A stretch of 64,000 nucleotides of DNA from a methanogenic archaeon ISO4-H5 (GTDB taxonomy: Archaea; Thermoplasmatota; Thermoplasmata; Methanomassiliicoccales; Methanomethylophilaceae): the NCBI GenBank assembly GCA_001560915.1, contig CP014214.1:1302001-1366000 (forward strand), in the 5' to 3' direction. A program made the position numbers and the translations under genes. The notes beneath the pieces were generated by a model. It was not told where the DNA came from. It ran no database searches and saw nothing but the letters and a program-made list of their open reading frames with translations. This document shows, in pieces, positions 37,937-48,109 of this stretch (its first letter is position 1; the number at the start of each line of letters is the position of its first letter).

Positions 37937-37958
37937 TATAGTCGGGAGTTTGGAGAGC

Positions 37959-39554
37959 ATGGTCATCGATCCCGAAGTCTACCGCTTGATCAACAAACGC
38001 AAGGATGACCCCATCTTCATGGATTTTCTCCTGAACCATTATTCTCAAATCGTAGATTCCAAAGAAGGTATGGATAAGATCTGCTATGCCCAGGAAATCG
38101 CACGTGTCCTAGCCAGATTTGCAATCCAAGAACGGGTCCTTGCAGAACATAGTGACCATCCCATAGACGAAGAAAAATACAATCGTTATTACAGGACAGC
38201 GTTATACATTATCAGAAAAGGCATTGATATCGGCATGAAGATGGATTACGAGGCTAACGTGATTGGGGGAAAACCACTGAATGTCTCATATAACTATCAT
38301 ATGGGCTGGGCCTATGTACAGTACTCTATGATTCTTGCCGAAAACTATCGTTATTTCGCTGCTATGGGTGCGATTGTAACTGCAGAGAACTATCTAGTCA
38401 ACGATATATATAAAATAAAAGCTGGAAACCGGTTGCAAGGGGCCATAGATCTAATAAAAAGTCTGCCGGATTACGATGCGAGCACTCACGGTCCGTTGAC
38501 AGACTTGACGCCTGAACAGGCTGATCGGAGGATACTTCATCTATTTGATAGCCTAGGTGAGGCGGTCAATGAAAAGAAACTTCGCATTTTGGATGAGGTC
38601 TACAAGAAAGTCCCCGATAAATACCGCTTCATGTATGCGGTTTGTATAGATGGCCTCTTGGATTATTTCAAAAAAAGAAACGAAAAAGATTTCTTGAAAA
38701 ATTATGGTAAAGTTGTTTTAGATATTCAGGAGGAATTCCCAGAAATACCAAAGAAATTCCTCGATCTGCCTGATCTTTCTCAAAAGAATCTCGCACACGA
38801 TGAAACCCAAGAAGAAAAAAATTATGCCCTGTGGATTGATGGTTGCCACCTATTCTTAAGCTACCTGGATTTCGTTCCTGACATAGAAAAACGTCTCCGA
38901 TATGAGTGTGATGACCTGGTATTCGATTTCCAAATTCCGGATCTCAACAACATAATGGAGGATGTGGTAGAAACCTACTCCCATTGCAGGTTCCAGTTTT
39001 ACATGGCAACGCAATTCAATAGTCCGATTGAAAAACTGGCATACAGCTTCAGTCCATTTAACAAACGCATTTACAATCAAGAATTGCTTCTGGACACCTA
39101 TCCCCGCCTGTACTCGATTTTGGATAAAATATCCCATATAGTGATGAAAATCTGTGACATTACGATAATGCCCAACGACGACGGATATACTCCTCAACCC
39201 TCGTATAATCTAATTGTGCAGGAAATTCGTAAAAATTCAAACGGAAACCCATATCTCCTTACTCTCTGTGAGATATTCGACGAGATCAATCCTCGCTACA
39301 TTTACAGGACACAGAAGGACGTGCCATTCTATACGATGCTCCCTGGAGCTGAGCATATGGATAGGATTAGACATCATATAATCCACTCGGGGATCATGCT
39401 TGACGCTGATAGAAAGGTCAAAAAATCAAACAAGATTGTCTGCCATATCTCCGGAACAGATTTCGCAATGAGATGCTTAAATCTCATCACCCTTGTCAAG
39501 GAAGCTATCATGAACACCTGCATGGCAATAGAATACAGAAATCGCCAGGAATGA
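37959..39554 (+). CDS. HEPN protein of the LA2681 type
   Basis: The 531-residue protein is largely helical and AT-rich in coding, unlike the housekeeping genes. Near residues 471-476 it has RHHIIH, an Rx4H motif in a DRIRHHIIHSGIM setting typical of HEPN domains of the LA2681 class. The N-terminal two-thirds may form helical repeats. HEPN domains usually cleave RNA. I prefer the ATG at 37959 over TTG at 37950 because GGGAG lies ten bases upstream of the ATG. It likely shares a transcript with the coiled-coil gene before it. Confidence 0.68.
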   Translation: MVIDPEVYRLINKRKDDPIFMDFLLNHYSQIVDSKEGMDKICYAQEIARVLARFAIQERVLAEHSDHPIDEEKYNRYYRTALYIIRKGIDIGMKMDYEANVIGGKPLNVSYNYHMGWAYVQYSMILAENYRYFAAMGAIVTAENYLVNDIYKIKAGNRLQGAIDLIKSLPDYDASTHGPLTDLTPEQADRRILHLFDSLGEAVNEKKLRILDEVYKKVPDKYRFMYAVCIDGLLDYFKKRNEKDFLKNYGKVVLDIQEEFPEIPKKFLDLPDLSQKNLAHDETQEEKNYALWIDGCHLFLSYLDFVPDIEKRLRYECDDLVFDFQIPDLNNIMEDVVETYSHCRFQFYMATQFNSPIEKLAYSFSPFNKRIYNQELLLDTYPRLYSILDKISHIVMKICDITIMPNDDGYTPQPSYNLIVQEIRKNSNGNPYLLTLCEIFDEINPRYIYRTQKDVPFYTMLPGAEHMDRIRHHIIHSGIMLDADRKVKKSNKIVCHISGTDFAMRCLNLITLVKEAIMNTCMAIEYRNRQE

Positions 39555-39590: not shown

Positions 39591-40292
39591 ATGATGCATG
39601 TCCATATCGCCTACGCGGGAAAAGTTCCGGACCCCACTCTGAATACAATCAAAGCAGTACCGGATGCCATCGACAGGGTAGTTCTGCTTTACAGCGTAAC
39701 GGACGATGGTGTTTTCGAACGTACCGCAGAGGAACTATCGGGCAAATTGGGAAATATGGGATACCTCTGTGAATCCAGAATCATCAACTCCTTCGATTTC
39801 CTGAATATCGTGGACACGATCTATGATGTTTTCGAGGAATACAAGAAACAGGATCGTAATGTAAAATTTTCCGTGGACATAACCAACGGAACTAATCTCA
39901 CTGCAGCGGCTGCATGTAATACGGCATTCTTCATGAATTCCGACGTTTATTACATGGGAGATAAACGCAGATTCCCCGAGAAATCATTAAGTGAACTCCT
40001 GATCGCCATCCCCTCTCCGAAAATCCCGGATGTGAAACGTCTGGGCGATTTATCTCTAGATATGCTGAGGTTCATCGCCGAGGAACAGGATCTCGGTCAC
40101 GAGGTATGCAACGTGGATGTCGCCAGGAAATTCGATATGTCCCCTCAGGCGATTATGTATCACATAAACAGACTCAGGGACGCAGGGGTCATCGATTTGG
40201 AAGATGCCTATACTCCCAAAGGAAAGATCGATAAACGCAGGAAAGCGATAAAGATCAGGCGTGAGGGAAGATTCGTCCTCAGATGGACTTGA
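39591..40292 (+). CDS. CARF-domain winged-helix regulator (Csa3 / DUF6293-like), copy 2
   Basis: The 233-residue protein matches copy 1 (33334-34014) in layout: N-terminal Rossmann-like CARF domain (MHVHIAYAG start, DITNGTN near 98) and C-terminal wHTH with SPQAIMYHINRLRDAG, ending in a basic segment. GTTATATCAT about 25 nt upstream gives a nearly leaderless start. It precedes the kinase and viperin genes and may regulate them. Two such sensors in 7 kb without CRISPR suggest a nucleotide signal from another source; this is inference. Confidence 0.82.
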   Translation: MMHVHIAYAGKVPDPTLNTIKAVPDAIDRVVLLYSVTDDGVFERTAEELSGKLGNMGYLCESRIINSFDFLNIVDTIYDVFEEYKKQDRNVKFSVDITNGTNLTAAAACNTAFFMNSDVYYMGDKRRFPEKSLSELLIAIPSPKIPDVKRLGDLSLDMLRFIAEEQDLGHEVCNVDVARKFDMSPQAIMYHINRLRDAGVIDLEDAYTPKGKIDKRRKAIKIRREGRFVLRWT

Positions 40293-40383
40293 TTTAATTT
40301 CCGTAATTATCAACTTCATCCATACTACTGTGCCAGATGACTGTTATCGTGTTTATTGTGAAACACAAATACTAAAAGTTATA

Positions 40384-40479
40384 TTTTTATTATAAATGAT
40401 TTTTACTTTATAATTCCAAAACGAACTTACCCTCATGAACACAGAAACCGCCCTGGTCAAAAAGTGCAGGTCTGCTAAC
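40384..40479 (+). repeat. Promoter plus 15-codon leader shared with the viperin gene (copy A)
   Basis: This 96-bp block (51 nt of promoter and the first 15 codons of the kinase gene) aligns without gaps to 42325-42420. I count about 71 of 96 positions equal. Both copies have a TTTATAAT box 28 nt before the ATG (40407-40414 here) and both proteins start MNTET..V.K.RSAN. The shared block suggests the two genes are turned on together. Confidence 0.8.
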
Positions 40480-41133
40480 AGGAAATACACCATCGGCGTA
40501 TTCGGAATCTCAAGGAGCGGAAAGGATTCGGCCATTGACGTCTTCGTCGACATAGCCCGGGAGAACGGTTACGAATTCACCCATATGTCCCCCATTGGGA
40601 TGATCCGTGAGAGACTGACGGGCAGAAGACTCAAGACGATGCCGGAATCGGAGAAGAGGCAACTGGTGGAAGAGGTGCGGGCTGAGATCAGAAAGGTCTC
40701 GGAGACCAATAACATCATCGTTGACGAACACTACTGCTTCCCCCACGATTTCGGAGGAGTTGTGTTGGAGGACGGATATTATGATGAGAAACTGCCCTAT
40801 GACATCATGAGCATTCCTAACTCTCCCACGAACTACGAAGTCGTGCTCCCTAGATTCGGCACGCAGTTCTATGATCTCGTGGCTGTGATGAAGATAGACC
40901 CAGACGCCATAATCGAACGTATGAGGAGATCTGAAGGATGCAAGAGGAACACAGTCGCAACCAGAGAGGATATCATACATTGGCAGCGGGCAGAGATGAT
41001 AGGGGTATACCATGATGCCCTGGGTCGCGGCATATTCCAATCTGAGGACTATATGAAAAATGCCGAGGCCATTTGGGGAGCTTTCGAGGAACTTGTCAAC
41101 GAAGACCGTTCACCCCAGCCCAATCACTTGTAA
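40435..41133 (+). CDS. P-loop nucleotide kinase-like protein
   Basis: The 232-residue protein has a 15-residue leader, then GVFGISRSGKDS (P-loop, about 21-32) and a DEHYCF segment near 104 that fits a Walker B/acceptor region. It resembles adenylate/cytidylate kinase-type folds but no exact family is recognised. It is a paralogue of the amber-interrupted kinase at 43532-44176. Nucleotide kinases are often found beside prokaryotic viperins, where they may phosphorylate the product or precursor. Its 3' end overlaps the ApeA-like gene's end by 10 nt (convergent). Confidence 0.75.
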   Translation: MNTETALVKKCRSANRKYTIGVFGISRSGKDSAIDVFVDIARENGYEFTHMSPIGMIRERLTGRRLKTMPESEKRQLVEEVRAEIRKVSETNNIIVDEHYCFPHDFGGVVLEDGYYDEKLPYDIMSIPNSPTNYEVVLPRFGTQFYDLVAVMKIDPDAIIERMRRSEGCKRNTVATREDIIHWQRAEMIGVYHDALGRGIFQSEDYMKNAEAIWGAFEELVNEDRSPQPNHL

Positions 41134-42269
41134 ACATAGGGCTTGTCTGCCTGGAAGTTATGTGGTCTGAAAATTCTCTCCATCAAACCATCACTCACAG
41201 GATTCCATCTGACGGTGTCAACCTTGTATGCGGCCTTATCCTCATCGCAGTATTCCAGTTTGTTGACGATATCCTCTATTTCCCTGTCCTTCACATAGAA
41301 CAGCTTCAGAATCAGGCATCTAGTAAGGTCGAATGCCATCGGTATGCATTCCTTGTCAAATACTTCATCCTTGCTTTTGTGGACGAGTAAACTGCGCTGG
41401 TAGTAAAGATATCCCACTTTCTTGTAGAGATTGGCCTGCTTTTTCCCTTTTACTACTCCGCCGTTACGTATCATACGAGAAACACTCTGCTTAATCCTCT
41501 CAGTTACACGGTTCCTGTTCTTTGACCATATCTCCGGGAATTGCTGAGCGAACAATTCCCATATCCCCGATATTGCTATGAATGCGGTTTCCACATCGTT
41601 GCATCTGTACGCATTCCTGTATAGATCGAGCATCCTTTTCGTTAGCATATCCTTGCTGCTCGGTTCCGGCCCGTAATTCAGCGGATAGAACTGGGTGTAC
41701 CACTCACGGAACTCCGAATAGAACTTTTGAAAATCCTTCTTCTCGGATTCACTCAGCGTGAACACGGGCAGAAATCTCCATAACGCATAGTTCGTCTCGC
41801 ATTGGTACATATCGTTTACGGCCACACCTCCTTCCGGAAGTACTCCGATTCCGAATCCTGCCCGGTTCGTTTTGAAGAGTCTGATGGCATCGATGAGACA
41901 CCTCTCCTCGTCCTCCCAGCTTTTATCGGTGTCCATTCTGAAGTATCTGAACTGCTGATACTCCGAACAGCATGTCCCATCGTCCTTCTTCTTCACGACG
42001 AATTCGCAGTAGATCGTACGGGCCATGGAGAGTGGAGCGAAAAGATGGTGGAAGAAATCATAGAGCGTGTCCACCAAAATCTCATCCCTGCGTTCGTTGA
42101 CTATCTTACCGTCAGGACCGCTGGCTCTGTTGTAGATGTAGGACATTCCGGTTTCCATGATCGGCTTCATGTCATACGGCGAAACGGTACCGTATTCGAA
42201 CGGCGGCAGATCCACGTCTAGAAGAGAATCGTCCATTCCGCTGCACAGTACGATGGCCGTGGTCTGCAT
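41124..42269 (-). CDS. ApeA-like HEPN protein
   Basis: The 381-residue protein has an N-terminal part of unknown fold and a C-terminal HEPN domain with RSLLVH (about 292-297), in the YYQRSLLVHKS setting typical of ApeA-type HEPN proteins (Rx4H). Such proteins act in anti-phage defence by degrading tRNA or other RNA. GTGATATAACC on the minus strand about 25 nt upstream fits a leaderless start at 42269. It lies between the kinase and viperin genes in the opposite direction, with the viperin promoter on its 5' side. Confidence 0.75.
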   Translation of the reverse strand: MQTTAIVLCSGMDDSLLDVDLPPFEYGTVSPYDMKPIMETGMSYIYNRASGPDGKIVNERRDEILVDTLYDFFHHLFAPLSMARTIYCEFVVKKKDDGTCCSEYQQFRYFRMDTDKSWEDEERCLIDAIRLFKTNRAGFGIGVLPEGGVAVNDMYQCETNYALWRFLPVFTLSESEKKDFQKFYSEFREWYTQFYPLNYGPEPSSKDMLTKRMLDLYRNAYRCNDVETAFIAISGIWELFAQQFPEIWSKNRNRVTERIKQSVSRMIRNGGVVKGKKQANLYKKVGYLYYQRSLLVHKSKDEVFDKECIPMAFDLTRCLILKLFYVKDREIEDIVNKLEYCDEDKAAYKVDTVRWNPVSDGLMERIFRPHNFQADKPYVYK

Positions 42270-42324
42270 AGGGGCAGTATGGCGTTATGGTTATATCACG
42301 GTTGGTAAAATAGCCAAAATTATC

Positions 42325-42420
42325 TTTTTATTATCAAAGAATTTTGCTTTATAATCTGAACACCAAATACCTATCATGAACACAGAAACTACCTCAGTCA
42401 GGAAATTCAGGTCCGCAAAC
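42325..42420 (+). repeat. Promoter plus 15-codon leader shared with the kinase gene (copy B)
   Basis: Second copy of the block at 40384-40479, ending in codon 15 of the viperin gene. TTTATAAT at 42348-42355 is the TATA box, 28 nt before the ATG, as in copy A. Confidence 0.8.
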
Positions 42421-43206
42421 ATCCACATCTACGGAAAATGCAACTACCGCTGCGAGCACTGTTTCGACAGGTGCCTCACCAAGAACTACATGAGGCCGTC
42501 CGACTGGGTTGACACCCTGACCTTCCTGAAGGAATACGGGGTGGAGAAGATCAACCTGGCCGGCGGGGAACCCACCCTCTATCCCTTCCTGGACCAGATG
42601 TGCTACCTGGTCAAGGGCATGGGCTTCAAGCTCTCCATCGTCAGCAACGGCTCCCTCATCACCGAGGACTGGATGGCTAGGATGGAGGGAGTCGTCGACT
42701 GGATCGGTCTCTCCATCGACTCCATCGATGAGGCGGACGAGATCCAGATCGGAAGGGGCAGGGGAGGCCACCTGGAGAACATCGTACAGGTCGCCGATAT
42801 GGCCCACCGGCACGGCATCAAGGTAAAGCTCAACATCACCGTGGTTAGGAGGAGTTGGATGAAGGACTTCAGACCCTTCATCGAGAAGGTTAGGCCAGAA
42901 CGCGTCAAGTGCTTCAGGGCCCTCACCCTGAAGAACGCAAACGACGACGTCCCCGACACCTGGTCCATCACAGACAAACAGTTCGAAGACTTCAGGCGCA
43001 GGCACGAGGACATCGGCTGCATCGTCTTCGAGGACAACGAGGACATGGTCTCCTCCTACGTGATGTTCGACCCCATGGGCAGATGGATGGTCGACAGCGG
43101 GTACGAGAAGAGGTTCATCTCCTTCGAGGTCCTCAGGAGGGAAGGGCTCGACCGGGAAGTGGATGTCGAGAAGTACTTCGGCCGCAACGCCGTCTACGAA
43201 TGGTGA
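42376..43206 (+). CDS. Prokaryotic viperin (pVip), radical SAM antiviral enzyme
   Basis: The 276-residue protein has the viperin pattern: CNYRCEHCF (Cys22, Cys26, Cys29 for the 4Fe-4S cluster), LAGGEPTLYP, LSIVSNGSLI, a NITVV segment, and the viperin C-terminal part (CFRALTLKNAN, RRHEDIGCIVFEDNEDM, SSYVMFDPMGRW) that separates viperins from MoaA-type proteins. Viperins convert CTP, GTP or UTP to 3'-deoxy-3',4'-didehydro nucleotides that stop viral RNA polymerases. The base used here cannot be read. Two P-loop kinase genes flank it, a common pVip setting. The first 15 residues match the leader of the upstream kinase. Confidence 0.9.
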   Translation: MNTETTSVRKFRSANIHIYGKCNYRCEHCFDRCLTKNYMRPSDWVDTLTFLKEYGVEKINLAGGEPTLYPFLDQMCYLVKGMGFKLSIVSNGSLITEDWMARMEGVVDWIGLSIDSIDEADEIQIGRGRGGHLENIVQVADMAHRHGIKVKLNITVVRRSWMKDFRPFIEKVRPERVKCFRALTLKNANDDVPDTWSITDKQFEDFRRRHEDIGCIVFEDNEDMVSSYVMFDPMGRWMVDSGYEKRFISFEVLRREGLDREVDVEKYFGRNAVYEW

Positions 43207-43526
43207 TTGGCTTGAAGTACAAACCGTACAAACCTGCCGAGGAGAACCTCGCCGTCGGTGACGTGAGAAAGTGCACGTTCAACGGAGTAGGGGTCGTCGA
43301 GACGTTCTATGTTGTTGTGATGGCGGTTTACCCCGGCCACATCGCAGTCAGGAAACTCCACAAGGACAACTGGGGAGCTACCCGGTATCTGATAAGGGAC
43401 GTGGCCCCGACCGGTCTCGAATACGCCATGTTCGTGGATACCAAGGATACAGAAATGCAGGAACAGATGGTCGGCCGCAAAACGGGAAGGATCTCGAAGA
43501 CAGACGTGAGGAACATAAGGAAGTGA
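43200..43526 (+). CDS. Small protein coupled to viperin
   Basis: The 108-residue protein begins with an ATG that overlaps the viperin stop region (ATGGTGA), so it is probably translated by coupling. The sequence (VGDVRKCTFNGVGVVETFYVVVMAVYPGH, ending in basic residues) suggests a small beta-rich domain. I do not recognise a family. It is followed by the amber-interrupted kinase after five bases, with an AAGTGA-type site. Its place between viperin and kinase suggests it belongs to the same antiviral unit. Confidence 0.65.
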   Translation: MVIGLKYKPYKPAEENLAVGDVRKCTFNGVGVVETFYVVVMAVYPGHIAVRKLHKDNWGATRYLIRDVAPTGLEYAMFVDTKDTEMQEQMVGRKTGRISKTDVRNIRK

Positions 43527-43531
43527 TTGAA

Positions 43532-44176
43532 ATGACAGGTCAGAACATTAGTACGCATTACAGGATAGGATTATTCGGAGTGTCGAGGAGCGGCAAGAAC
43601 TACACCATCGACGACTTCATCGGACTGGCGAAAGACAACGGGATAGAATTCGTCCACATGTCCCCCATGGACATGATCCGTGCTCGTCTCGGCAGCCGCA
43701 GACTGCGTGATATGCCAGACGATGAAAAACGTGCACTCGTGACAGAGGTCAGGGAAGAGATCGACCGCATCGCCAAGGACCACAACATCATCGTGGACGA
43801 ACACTTCTGCTACCCCTCCACATTCGGCGGGAAGAAGCTGGAAAACGGATACTACGACGAGAAGCTCCCGCACGACATCCTCCATGATATGAGGTACAAA
43901 GTGGATTACGAGGTGGTCTTCCCCCGTTACGAATCCTAGAAATACGATCTGCTCGCAGTGATGAGTCTGGACCCGGAAATCATCGTGGAAAGGTCCAGAA
44001 CCTCCGAGGGGGCGAAATACAATCCCTACGTCACCGCTGAGGAGATTGCAGAGTGGCAGAAGGCTGAGATAAGCGGGATCGCCAGGGAAAGCCAGGTCCC
44101 CGTCTTCCTGATAACCGACCCGCGTAAATCGGGTATGTTGCTGTGGAAGGCGGCCAGGACCGCCTTGTTCCACTGA
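43532..44176 (+). CDS. P-loop kinase paralogue with in-frame amber codon (possible pyrrolysine) at 43937
   Basis: Read through one TAG, the frame encodes 214 residues. P-loop GLFGVSRSGKN (about 13-23) and VDEHFCYP match the kinase at 40435-41133. The TAG is codon 136 and aligns with a Gln in the paralogue (PRFGTQFYDL against PRYES-TAG-KYDL). Similarity continues after it (LLAVMSLDPEIIVERSRTSEG region), with no frameshift. CAG to TAG is a single transition. In an organism with pyrrolysine decoding the protein may be full length with Pyl at 136; otherwise it is a nonsense pseudogene. A GGAAGTGA site precedes the ATG. Confidence 0.8.
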
Positions 44177-44341
44177 TGGAAAAACAGTTTGGCAGCAATA
44201 CAGCAGCATGGTGAAGAGCAATCCGCCGACGAAGGACTCGGCGATGCCAGGTCCCTTCTCGCCTTTCTTCTTCTTTGCCATGGGAAACCGAATGTAACGG
44301 AGGTAAGGACTTCCGCAGAAACAAGAAACAAAGGAGAAGAA

Positions 44342-44498
44342 ATGAGTGAGCCCAATGAGATTAACATTCGCGAGGTACTTGAGATCTGCACGGAGGATGT
44401 TGTTTCCCGGGGATTATCTTGAGGCTCTCGAGTTCGTTTTTCATTCAGTGCTAGGGATACTCGAAGAAGGCACGTCCGAAATTACTGGTCATCGATGA
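44342..44498 (+). pseudogene. Short frameshifted gene remnant
   Basis: An AAGGAG site five bases before an ATG starts a helical-looking sequence (NEINIREVLEICTED). It stops after 26 codons, but moving one base at about 44399-44403 gives FPGDYLEALEFVFHSVL up to a TGA at 44496-44498. I read this as a small gene with a one-base frameshift. Family unknown. Confidence 0.35.
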
Positions 44499-45286: not shown

Positions 45287-48109
45287 ATGACCTCTATCCC
45301 TCCGGCCGCCTTCCCGCTGAACGACATCTCCGCGGGCAGGATGGACCTGATTTATAACGATACGGAATCCAACAGGAAGGTTCTCACCACCCTCCAGAAG
45401 GAGATCTCCGACTGCGACAGATTCGATTTCTCCGTCGCGTTCATCACCAGGAGCGGCATGGCCTGCATCAATCAGCTGCTGGACAACACCAGGGATAAGG
45501 TCAAAGGCAGGATCATCACCACCGACTACCTCAACTTCAGCGAACCTGCCGCTCTCAGACAGCTCCTGAGGTTCTCAAACATTGAGGTTAGGATCTACTC
45601 CCGCCAGAACTTCCACACCAAAGGATACATCTTCCACAAGGGGAAGGAGACCAGTCTGATGGTGGGCAGTTCTAACATTACCCAGGATGCCCTGAACGTC
45701 AACAAGGAATGGAACATCTGGTATTCCACCACCGACTCCGATAACCTCTTCCTGGGGACCACAGTCAGCGAGTTCGAATCCATGTGGAAGCAGTCCGTCC
45801 CCCTCACCGAGGAATGGATCCAGGAGTACGAGCCGAGGCATCTCCGTTCCAAGATCGAAAGGCAGACCGAGCTGCAGGCCCGCAGGAACGACCCCGTGGT
45901 GATCACCCCCAACGAGATGCAGAAGGATGCTCTGGAGAACCTCTGCAAACTCAGGAACTCCGGTGCCGACAAGGCTTTGCTCATCTCAGCCACCGGAACC
46001 GGAAAAACCTATCTGTCAGCGTTCGATGTGAAGGAATCACAATCCAAGAAGGTGCTCTTTCTGGTTCACCGTGAACAGATTCTCGACGATGCCCGTGAGA
46101 GTTACAAGGATATCCTCGGTAACGGAATCAGGACCGGAAAGATCACCGGAATCTCCAAGGATTTCGATGCGGACTACATCTTCTCCACCATCCAAACGAT
46201 GTCCAAACCTGACATCCTGGCACATTTCAAACCAGACCATTTCGACTACATCATATGCGACGAGGCACACCACGCAGTTGCCAAACAATACAACAGCATC
46301 GTCGACTACTTCAGACCCAAGTTCATGCTCGGCATGACCGCCACTCCCGAGAGAATGGATTCCGGCGACGTTTTCAAGAGGTTCAACCACAACATCGCCT
46401 ACGAAATCCGTCTCCAGGACGCCCTCGAAAAGAACATGCTCTGTCCCTTCCACTATTACGGCATTACCGACATCAGCGTGGACGGGAGGCCCATCGAGGA
46501 CGATGAGGACTTCAACTCCCTGGTCTCCGAGGAGAGGATCAAACACATCATCGAGAAGATGGAGTTCTACGGTCACTCCGGCGACAGGGTAAAGGGCCTG
46601 ATCTTCTGCAGATCCATCGAGGAAGGCAGGGAATTATCCGTAAAACTCAACGAACACGGTCTCAGGACCCAATTCGTCTGCGGAAAGGATGATGCGGCTA
46701 CCAGGGAAAAGGCGGTTAACCTTCTCGAACAGGAGGACAAATCCACTGGATTGGATTACATAATTACCGTGGATATCTTCAACGAGGGTGTGGACATCAA
46801 ATCCGTCAACCAGATCGTGATGCTGAGGCCCACCCAGTCTTCCATCATTTTCATACAGCAGCTCGGACGCGGACTCAGGAAGAGGGCCCTGAACGGAGAG
46901 CTCAAGGAATACCTCGTGGTCATCGACTTCATCGGGAACTACAAGAACAACTTCATGATCCCCATCGCTCTCTCCGGCGAGCGTTCCGCCAACAAGGAGC
47001 ATCTCCGCAGGTATCTCATGAAGCAGACCATTCCCGGCTGCAGCACGGTGGACTTCGATCTCATCTCCAAGAAAAGGATCTACGATTCCATCAACCGCTC
47101 CACCGTGACCGACCTCATCAAGGGACAGTACTCCTCCCTGGTAAAGATGCTCGGCTACGAACCGACCATGACCCAGCTTGTCAAATCCTCGAGCATGGAC
47201 CCGATGGACATCATAAATCACTACGACAACTTCAACAACTTCAAGAGGGTCCTGAAACTGACCCATCACAACCTCGGGAAGGGGGAGGAACTCACCCTCG
47301 ATTACCTCTCATCCACCATACTGAACGGCAAAAGGCCCCACGAATTGGAGATTCTGAAGAACGTCATCTCCCACGGTTGCGTCGATTTTTCTGTAGTTAA
47401 AAATGAACTCGCGGACAAATACGGTATCGACTGTGACGAAGATTCGCTTCAATGTGCTATCGATGTTCTCGACAGCGATTACTCCAAGAGACTGAAATCA
47501 CCTCTCATCGAAATCAAAGAGGGTAAGGCTTACTGCACCCAGTATTTGAAGGATCTCCTCAGCAGAGATTACACGAAAGAATACGTCCTCGACATCGTCG
47601 ACTGCGGCCTCGAGATCTTCGACAGGAGATACAAAGAAGGATTCGACGGTTCCCTAAAACTCTACGAAAGGTACTCCAGGAAAGACGTCTGCCGTCTGCT
47701 GAACCTCGGAACCGAAGGAATCTCGAGCACAATCTACGGTTACGGAACCTACCGCGGCAAGTGTCCTATCTTCGTCACCTACAACAAGGACGCGAACATC
47801 AGCAAGAGCATCCAGTACAAAGAGGAGTTCACCGACAGACAGCACTTCAGCTGGATGACCCGCAGTAATAGGAACATCCGGAGCAACGATGTCGCCTGTG
47901 TTCTCGATTCCAACATAGAGAAATACTTCTTCGTACAGAAAGGAGACGATGACAGTTCCGATTTCTACTATCTAGGAAAGGTCACACCCCAAGATCCCAG
48001 GGAGACCACCATCGAGGGCAACAAGGGCGAGGCACTCCCTATCGTGAACATCAAATTGGTCCTCGAACAGCCAGTTGACGAGGGCATATACGAGTATCTC
48101 ACCAACTGA
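45287..48109 (+). CDS. PLD-like domain fused to SF2 DEAD/DEAH helicase (DUF3427 type)
   Basis: The 940-residue protein has an N-terminal phospholipase-D-type nuclease domain (FHTKGYIF near 108 and VGSSN near 127), an SF2 helicase core (SATGTGKT about 233-240, CDEAHHA about 325, MTATPERMD, QQLGRGLRK), and a C-terminal DUF3427-like region (about 640-940). This layout is known in bacterial and archaeal genomes and is linked to DNA processing or phage defence, though its role is unsettled. The remnant-rich spacer upstream (45083-45286) has no clear promoter. Later codons are more AT-rich (about 47380-47700). Confidence 0.88.
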   Translation: MTSIPPAAFPLNDISAGRMDLIYNDTESNRKVLTTLQKEISDCDRFDFSVAFITRSGMACINQLLDNTRDKVKGRIITTDYLNFSEPAALRQLLRFSNIEVRIYSRQNFHTKGYIFHKGKETSLMVGSSNITQDALNVNKEWNIWYSTTDSDNLFLGTTVSEFESMWKQSVPLTEEWIQEYEPRHLRSKIERQTELQARRNDPVVITPNEMQKDALENLCKLRNSGADKALLISATGTGKTYLSAFDVKESQSKKVLFLVHREQILDDARESYKDILGNGIRTGKITGISKDFDADYIFSTIQTMSKPDILAHFKPDHFDYIICDEAHHAVAKQYNSIVDYFRPKFMLGMTATPERMDSGDVFKRFNHNIAYEIRLQDALEKNMLCPFHYYGITDISVDGRPIEDDEDFNSLVSEERIKHIIEKMEFYGHSGDRVKGLIFCRSIEEGRELSVKLNEHGLRTQFVCGKDDAATREKAVNLLEQEDKSTGLDYIITVDIFNEGVDIKSVNQIVMLRPTQSSIIFIQQLGRGLRKRALNGELKEYLVVIDFIGNYKNNFMIPIALSGERSANKEHLRRYLMKQTIPGCSTVDFDLISKKRIYDSINRSTVTDLIKGQYSSLVKMLGYEPTMTQLVKSSSMDPMDIINHYDNFNNFKRVLKLTHHNLGKGEELTLDYLSSTILNGKRPHELEILKNVISHGCVDFSVVKNELADKYGIDCDEDSLQCAIDVLDSDYSKRLKSPLIEIKEGKAYCTQYLKDLLSRDYTKEYVLDIVDCGLEIFDRRYKEGFDGSLKLYERYSRKDVCRLLNLGTEGISSTIYGYGTYRGKCPIFVTYNKDANISKSIQYKEEFTDRQHFSWMTRSNRNIRSNDVACVLDSNIEKYFFVQKGDDDSSDFYYLGKVTPQDPRETTIEGNKGEALPIVNIKLVLEQPVDEGIYEYLTN

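Follow-up and report, generated by a model that had tools for sequence, protein, structure and literature searches.

Within the genome of the methanogenic archaeon ISO4-H5, a kinase-like gene close to that of a prokaryotic viperin (pVip), an antiviral enzyme, is interrupted by an in-frame TAG, which raises the question whether this codon ends the protein, is read as pyrrolysine (Pyl) or serves as a switch that depends on Pyl. The gene, here named kinase-2, lies in the window, a stretch of 64,000 nucleotides (contig CP014214.1, positions 1,302,001 to 1,366,000) to which all coordinates without a locus label refer. The locus contains the following features:

39591–40292, + strand: CARF and winged-helix regulator, probable regulator of the locus (PADLOC CARF3, 1.1e-83), retained in the genomes G012 and SIG6
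40435–41133, + strand: kinase-1, intact paralogue of kinase-2 with a weak AAA_17 match, present solely in ISO4-H5 among the genomes searched
41124–42269, − strand: conserved gene of 381 aa, divergent from pVip and without a family match
42308–42421, + strand: promoter and leader of pVip, repeated at 40367–40480, before and into kinase-1 (74% over 114 nt)
42376–43206, + strand: pVip, a radical SAM protein (NCBIfam NF038283 with 236.7 bits, cut-off 180; PADLOC pVip 4.9e-70; matches to viperins of the PDB)
43203–43526, + strand: conserved 107-aa gene between pVip and kinase-2, found at the same place in G012 and SIG6, no Pfam match above cut-off
43532–44176, + strand: kinase-2, P-loop kinase-like with in-frame TAG, 214 aa with readthrough and 135 aa without
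43937–43939, + strand: TAG codon 136 of kinase-2, probable pyrrolysine; CAG (Gln) in the paralogue and CTA (Leu) in the G012 orthologue

The frame of kinase-2 starts with ATG at 43532 and ends with TGA at 44174–44176, and the TAG is codon 136 of 214. Beyond the TAG, neither a further stop nor a frameshift was found, and the tail aligns with the orthologue of G012, a genome of the same genus, as well as with kinase-1 in the window. Kinase-2 is 74% identical to the orthologue and 51% identical to the paralogue. The first-pass annotation had described a TAG that breaks an otherwise intact frame, matches the paralogue on both sides and stands over Gln, and this was confirmed in position, frame and alignment. 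It had further suggested looking for CAG or TAG at this codon in relatives; the CTA of G012 is neither, and among the compared copies the TAG is private to ISO4-H5. At least 78 open codons follow 12% of the TAG triplets in the window, so that an open tail is unremarkable alone and the case for kinase-2 rests on homology and on the selection pattern of the tail. Codon 136 directly precedes a conserved YDxxAV stretch. Its own residue varies between Leu and Gln, and the conservation among orthologues that a Pyl-dependent functional site would show was not observed. The codon falls in what appears to be a variable loop, probably at the protein surface.

Decoding of TAG requires the pyl genes, and pylS, pylB, pylC and pylD were found in one cluster, each above the curated cut-off in a family profile scan. 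A CUA-anticodon tRNA-like sequence (...GGGTCTCTAAAACC...) was spotted by eye upstream of pylS, while ARAGORN made no call for a CUA tRNA near this gene. Two mtmB-like genes contain a TAG, each with a PYLIS_1 match at the codon (permissive threshold). The pyl cluster, the tRNA and both mtmB copies are located approx. 70 kb from kinase-2. Thus, the search for pyl genes and TAG-containing methyltransferases proposed by the first-pass annotation was successful, and the absence of pyl genes, which it had named as counter-evidence, was not found.

The use of TAG was measured on a 323-kb sample of the genome. Well-supported ORFs (n = 162) ended with TGA in 141 cases, with TAA in 20 and with TAG in a single one, namely an mtmB truncated at the Pyl codon. 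The earlier statement that no other confidently called gene of the window ends in TAG therefore holds and can be extended to these 323 kb. When genes were called with TAG as a sense codon, 288 genes were obtained from the sample, twelve of which contained TAG. Five looked coding on either side of it: kinase-2, the two mtmB, an HTH-like gene and a reductase-like gene. The latter is presumably the published geranylgeranyl reductase, judged by position and look and not by a family scan. The HTH-like gene (L013:10508-11020), with a weak Crp-type match, has its in-frame TAG at codon 66. Of the seven weak TAG cases in this sample, two are followed by a short, non-coding tail and resemble true TAG stops; some termination at this codon may therefore persist. 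For ISO4-H5, a published study describes a complete pyl operon together with 46 genes that carry amber codons in frame, cas3 and the adenylate kinase AR505_1784 among them (PMC5011839). An adenylate-kinase-like gene in L041 (genome region 1902160), probably AR505_1784 by position, carries TAG at codon 178 of 198; this is near the protein end and may be a true stop despite the listing as a Pyl gene.

The part of kinase-2 behind the TAG was compared with the part before it. Against G012, dN/dS was 0.129 before the TAG and 0.109 after it, and the bootstrap 95% interval of pN/pS in the tail was 0.19–0.42, values that come from small numbers at high dS and describe purifying selection as a branch average. 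Polarised with kinase-1 as outgroup, private amino-acid changes in kinase-2 and G012 numbered 8 versus 7 before the TAG and 1 versus 4 after it. Judged from these substitutions, selection acts on the tail as it does on the head; since the TAG may be of recent origin, the signal may predate it, and only long-standing decay is excluded. Taken together, pyl genes, tRNA, avoidance of TAG as a stop and tail selection support the predicted decoding as pyrrolysine well.

A recent nonsense mutation is one alternative. In that case, most translation would end at the TAG, the resulting 135-aa fragment would be inactive and its task would fall to kinase-1. The second paralogue is indeed present and intact, a relative (SIG6) tolerates loss of the kinase, the TAG is private to the ISO4-H5 genome and a recent mutation would leave dN/dS unmarked. 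However, TAG is decoded in this genome and hardly ever serves as a stop, no second lesion has accumulated and the tail is conserved as the head is, which makes a young pseudogene unlikely. Disabling mutations in close relatives, which the first-pass annotation had regarded as evidence against its reading, were seen in part: the G012 copy is intact, and the copy of SIG6 (G048) is a remnant of ∼34 residues. This remnant (L006:3422-3637) is fused to a tail that by eye resembles the end of a tyrosine recombinase; a Pfam scan of the ORF was without a match. Ribosomes might also stop at the TAG and restart at an in-frame GTG or ATG ∼20 nt downstream, whereupon the two fragments would assemble to a split kinase. 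Yet no ribosome-binding-like sequence was seen between the TAG and these codons, and the Val-Met pair they encode is inherited, being present in the intact orthologue and paralogue as well, and such a split is extremely improbable.

The first-pass annotation had gone further and considered a recoded switch that ties defence to Pyl supply. Full-length kinase would then be made only with plentiful charged Pyl-tRNA, and viperin-linked defence would follow the Pyl and methylamine status of the cell. Full length does need readthrough, because truncation deletes the conserved ERxRxSEG segment, and due to this loss the 135-aa short form is probably inactive. Nevertheless, codon 136 is not conserved, and no PYLIS element was matched after the TAG (43400–44400), whereas the permissive threshold sufficed for a match in both mtmB copies. 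A downstream fold was considered as a signal as well and rejected, since it reached only z −1.8. Furthermore, many unrelated genes carry TAG (323-kb sample; PMC5011839), and selective coupling is thus unnecessary. A functional switch is therefore highly improbable, and we give very little credence to a functional Pyl136 by which charged Pyl-tRNA is needed to complete the kinase and Pyl supply gates an antiviral nucleotide pathway. With a variable loop, an unconserved residue, no PYLIS match and TAG as a near-ordinary sense codon, this part of the first-pass annotation is not supported.

The name defence kinase calls for similar caution. The attribution to defence derives solely from the position beside pVip, and the P-loop match of the kinases is weak, with AAA_17 below cut-off. 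The motif GVSRSGKN resembles a Walker A motif, but has N/D in place of the usual S/T. A PDB search with the kinase gave no match, and a profile match to the nitrogenase Fe protein (E 0.2) was judged to be chance. Structure prediction from three kinase sequences resulted in a poor model (pLDDT 45). From the motif layout we suspected an archaeal AdkA; the cut-off of the AdkA model is exceeded by no member of the order. Relatives of the kinase-2 protein were absent from viral contigs, phages and plasmids (0 each), and genome contigs yielded one locus, a remnant.

The pVip contains the radical SAM motif CxxxCxxC as CNYRCEHC, and its best PADLOC model is that of viperins without kinases. G012 (L009) shares the order of CARF regulator, divergently oriented gene, pVip, 107-aa gene and kinase, and so does SIG6 (L006), there with a truncated kinase; judged from the ORFs, no kinase adjoins pVip in G028 or G096. 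The initial ∼14 codons of kinase-1 are those of pVip. Within the promoter and leader repeat, the AT-rich portion is nearly invariant in G012 and SIG6 too, which suggests a shared control site. The pVip DNA is 90% identical between the ISO4-H5 genome (G000) and G012 (dS 0.48), compared to 66–72% for the neighbouring genes and a dS of about 1.6 for the kinase; this high identity, specific to pVip, points to recent exchange or unusual constraint. In G012, going by the ORF list, a HAD/nucleotidase-looking frame (L005:2045-2650) lies downstream of the kinase and overlaps it; no such frame was seen at the corresponding place in the window. The locus is flanked by defence-like genes, one for an LA2681-type HEPN protein (37950–39554) and the other for a type IV restriction-like helicase carrying a PLD domain (45287–48109).

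In our preferred explanation, the TAG is very probably a sense codon for Pyl-tRNA(CUA) and yields a full-length kinase of 214 aa with Pyl at residue 136. Kinase-2 would follow the viperin and the 107-aa protein in translation, and ribosomes would insert pyrrolysine at codon 136 and complete the kinase. The probable origin of the codon is a single CAG-to-TAG transition at a variable site, a change that would be tolerated because the methanogen decodes TAG across its genome. Viperin-CMPK2 and kinase-linked pVips offer the analogy for a kinase acting on a viperin-tied nucleotide. The enzyme would thus probably phosphorylate a nucleotide that is linked to the neighbouring viperin, either for substrate supply or for product handling. 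Pyl insertion, kinase activity and the role in defence are steps that we infer from sequence and gene position.

Like pVips with a nucleotide kinase and vertebrate viperin-CMPK2, the locus combines a radical SAM viperin and a P-loop kinase-like gene within one operon, but kinase-2 lacks a confident family match. With MtmB, MtbB and MttB it shares a TAG that is decoded inside a conserved frame. In these methyltransferases, a conserved Pyl takes part in catalysis and its codon is followed by a PYLIS-like element, unlike the variable site of kinase-2 with no PYLIS match. Kinase-2 is a clean case for asking if Pyl outside methyltransferases is merely a tolerated missense change. Defence genes with probable Pyl have already been noted, namely cas3 in ISO4-H5 (PMC5011839) and cas1 in M. 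alvus (PMC4153887), and beyond these two papers the literature searched yielded nothing on kinases linked to viperins or on a Pyl code spanning the genome. In archaea that decode Pyl, such defence genes can be expected to be cut short by standard gene callers. A close likeness is to the predicted Pyl genes of Methanomassiliicoccales: these, too, carry TAG in frame without being involved in methylamine use, their genomes contain a pyl operon and relatives have no TAG at the site. Kinase-2 is one of dozens of probable Pyl genes in this genome, and the published class gains one member which, in contrast to cas3 and cas1, is a viperin-linked kinase.
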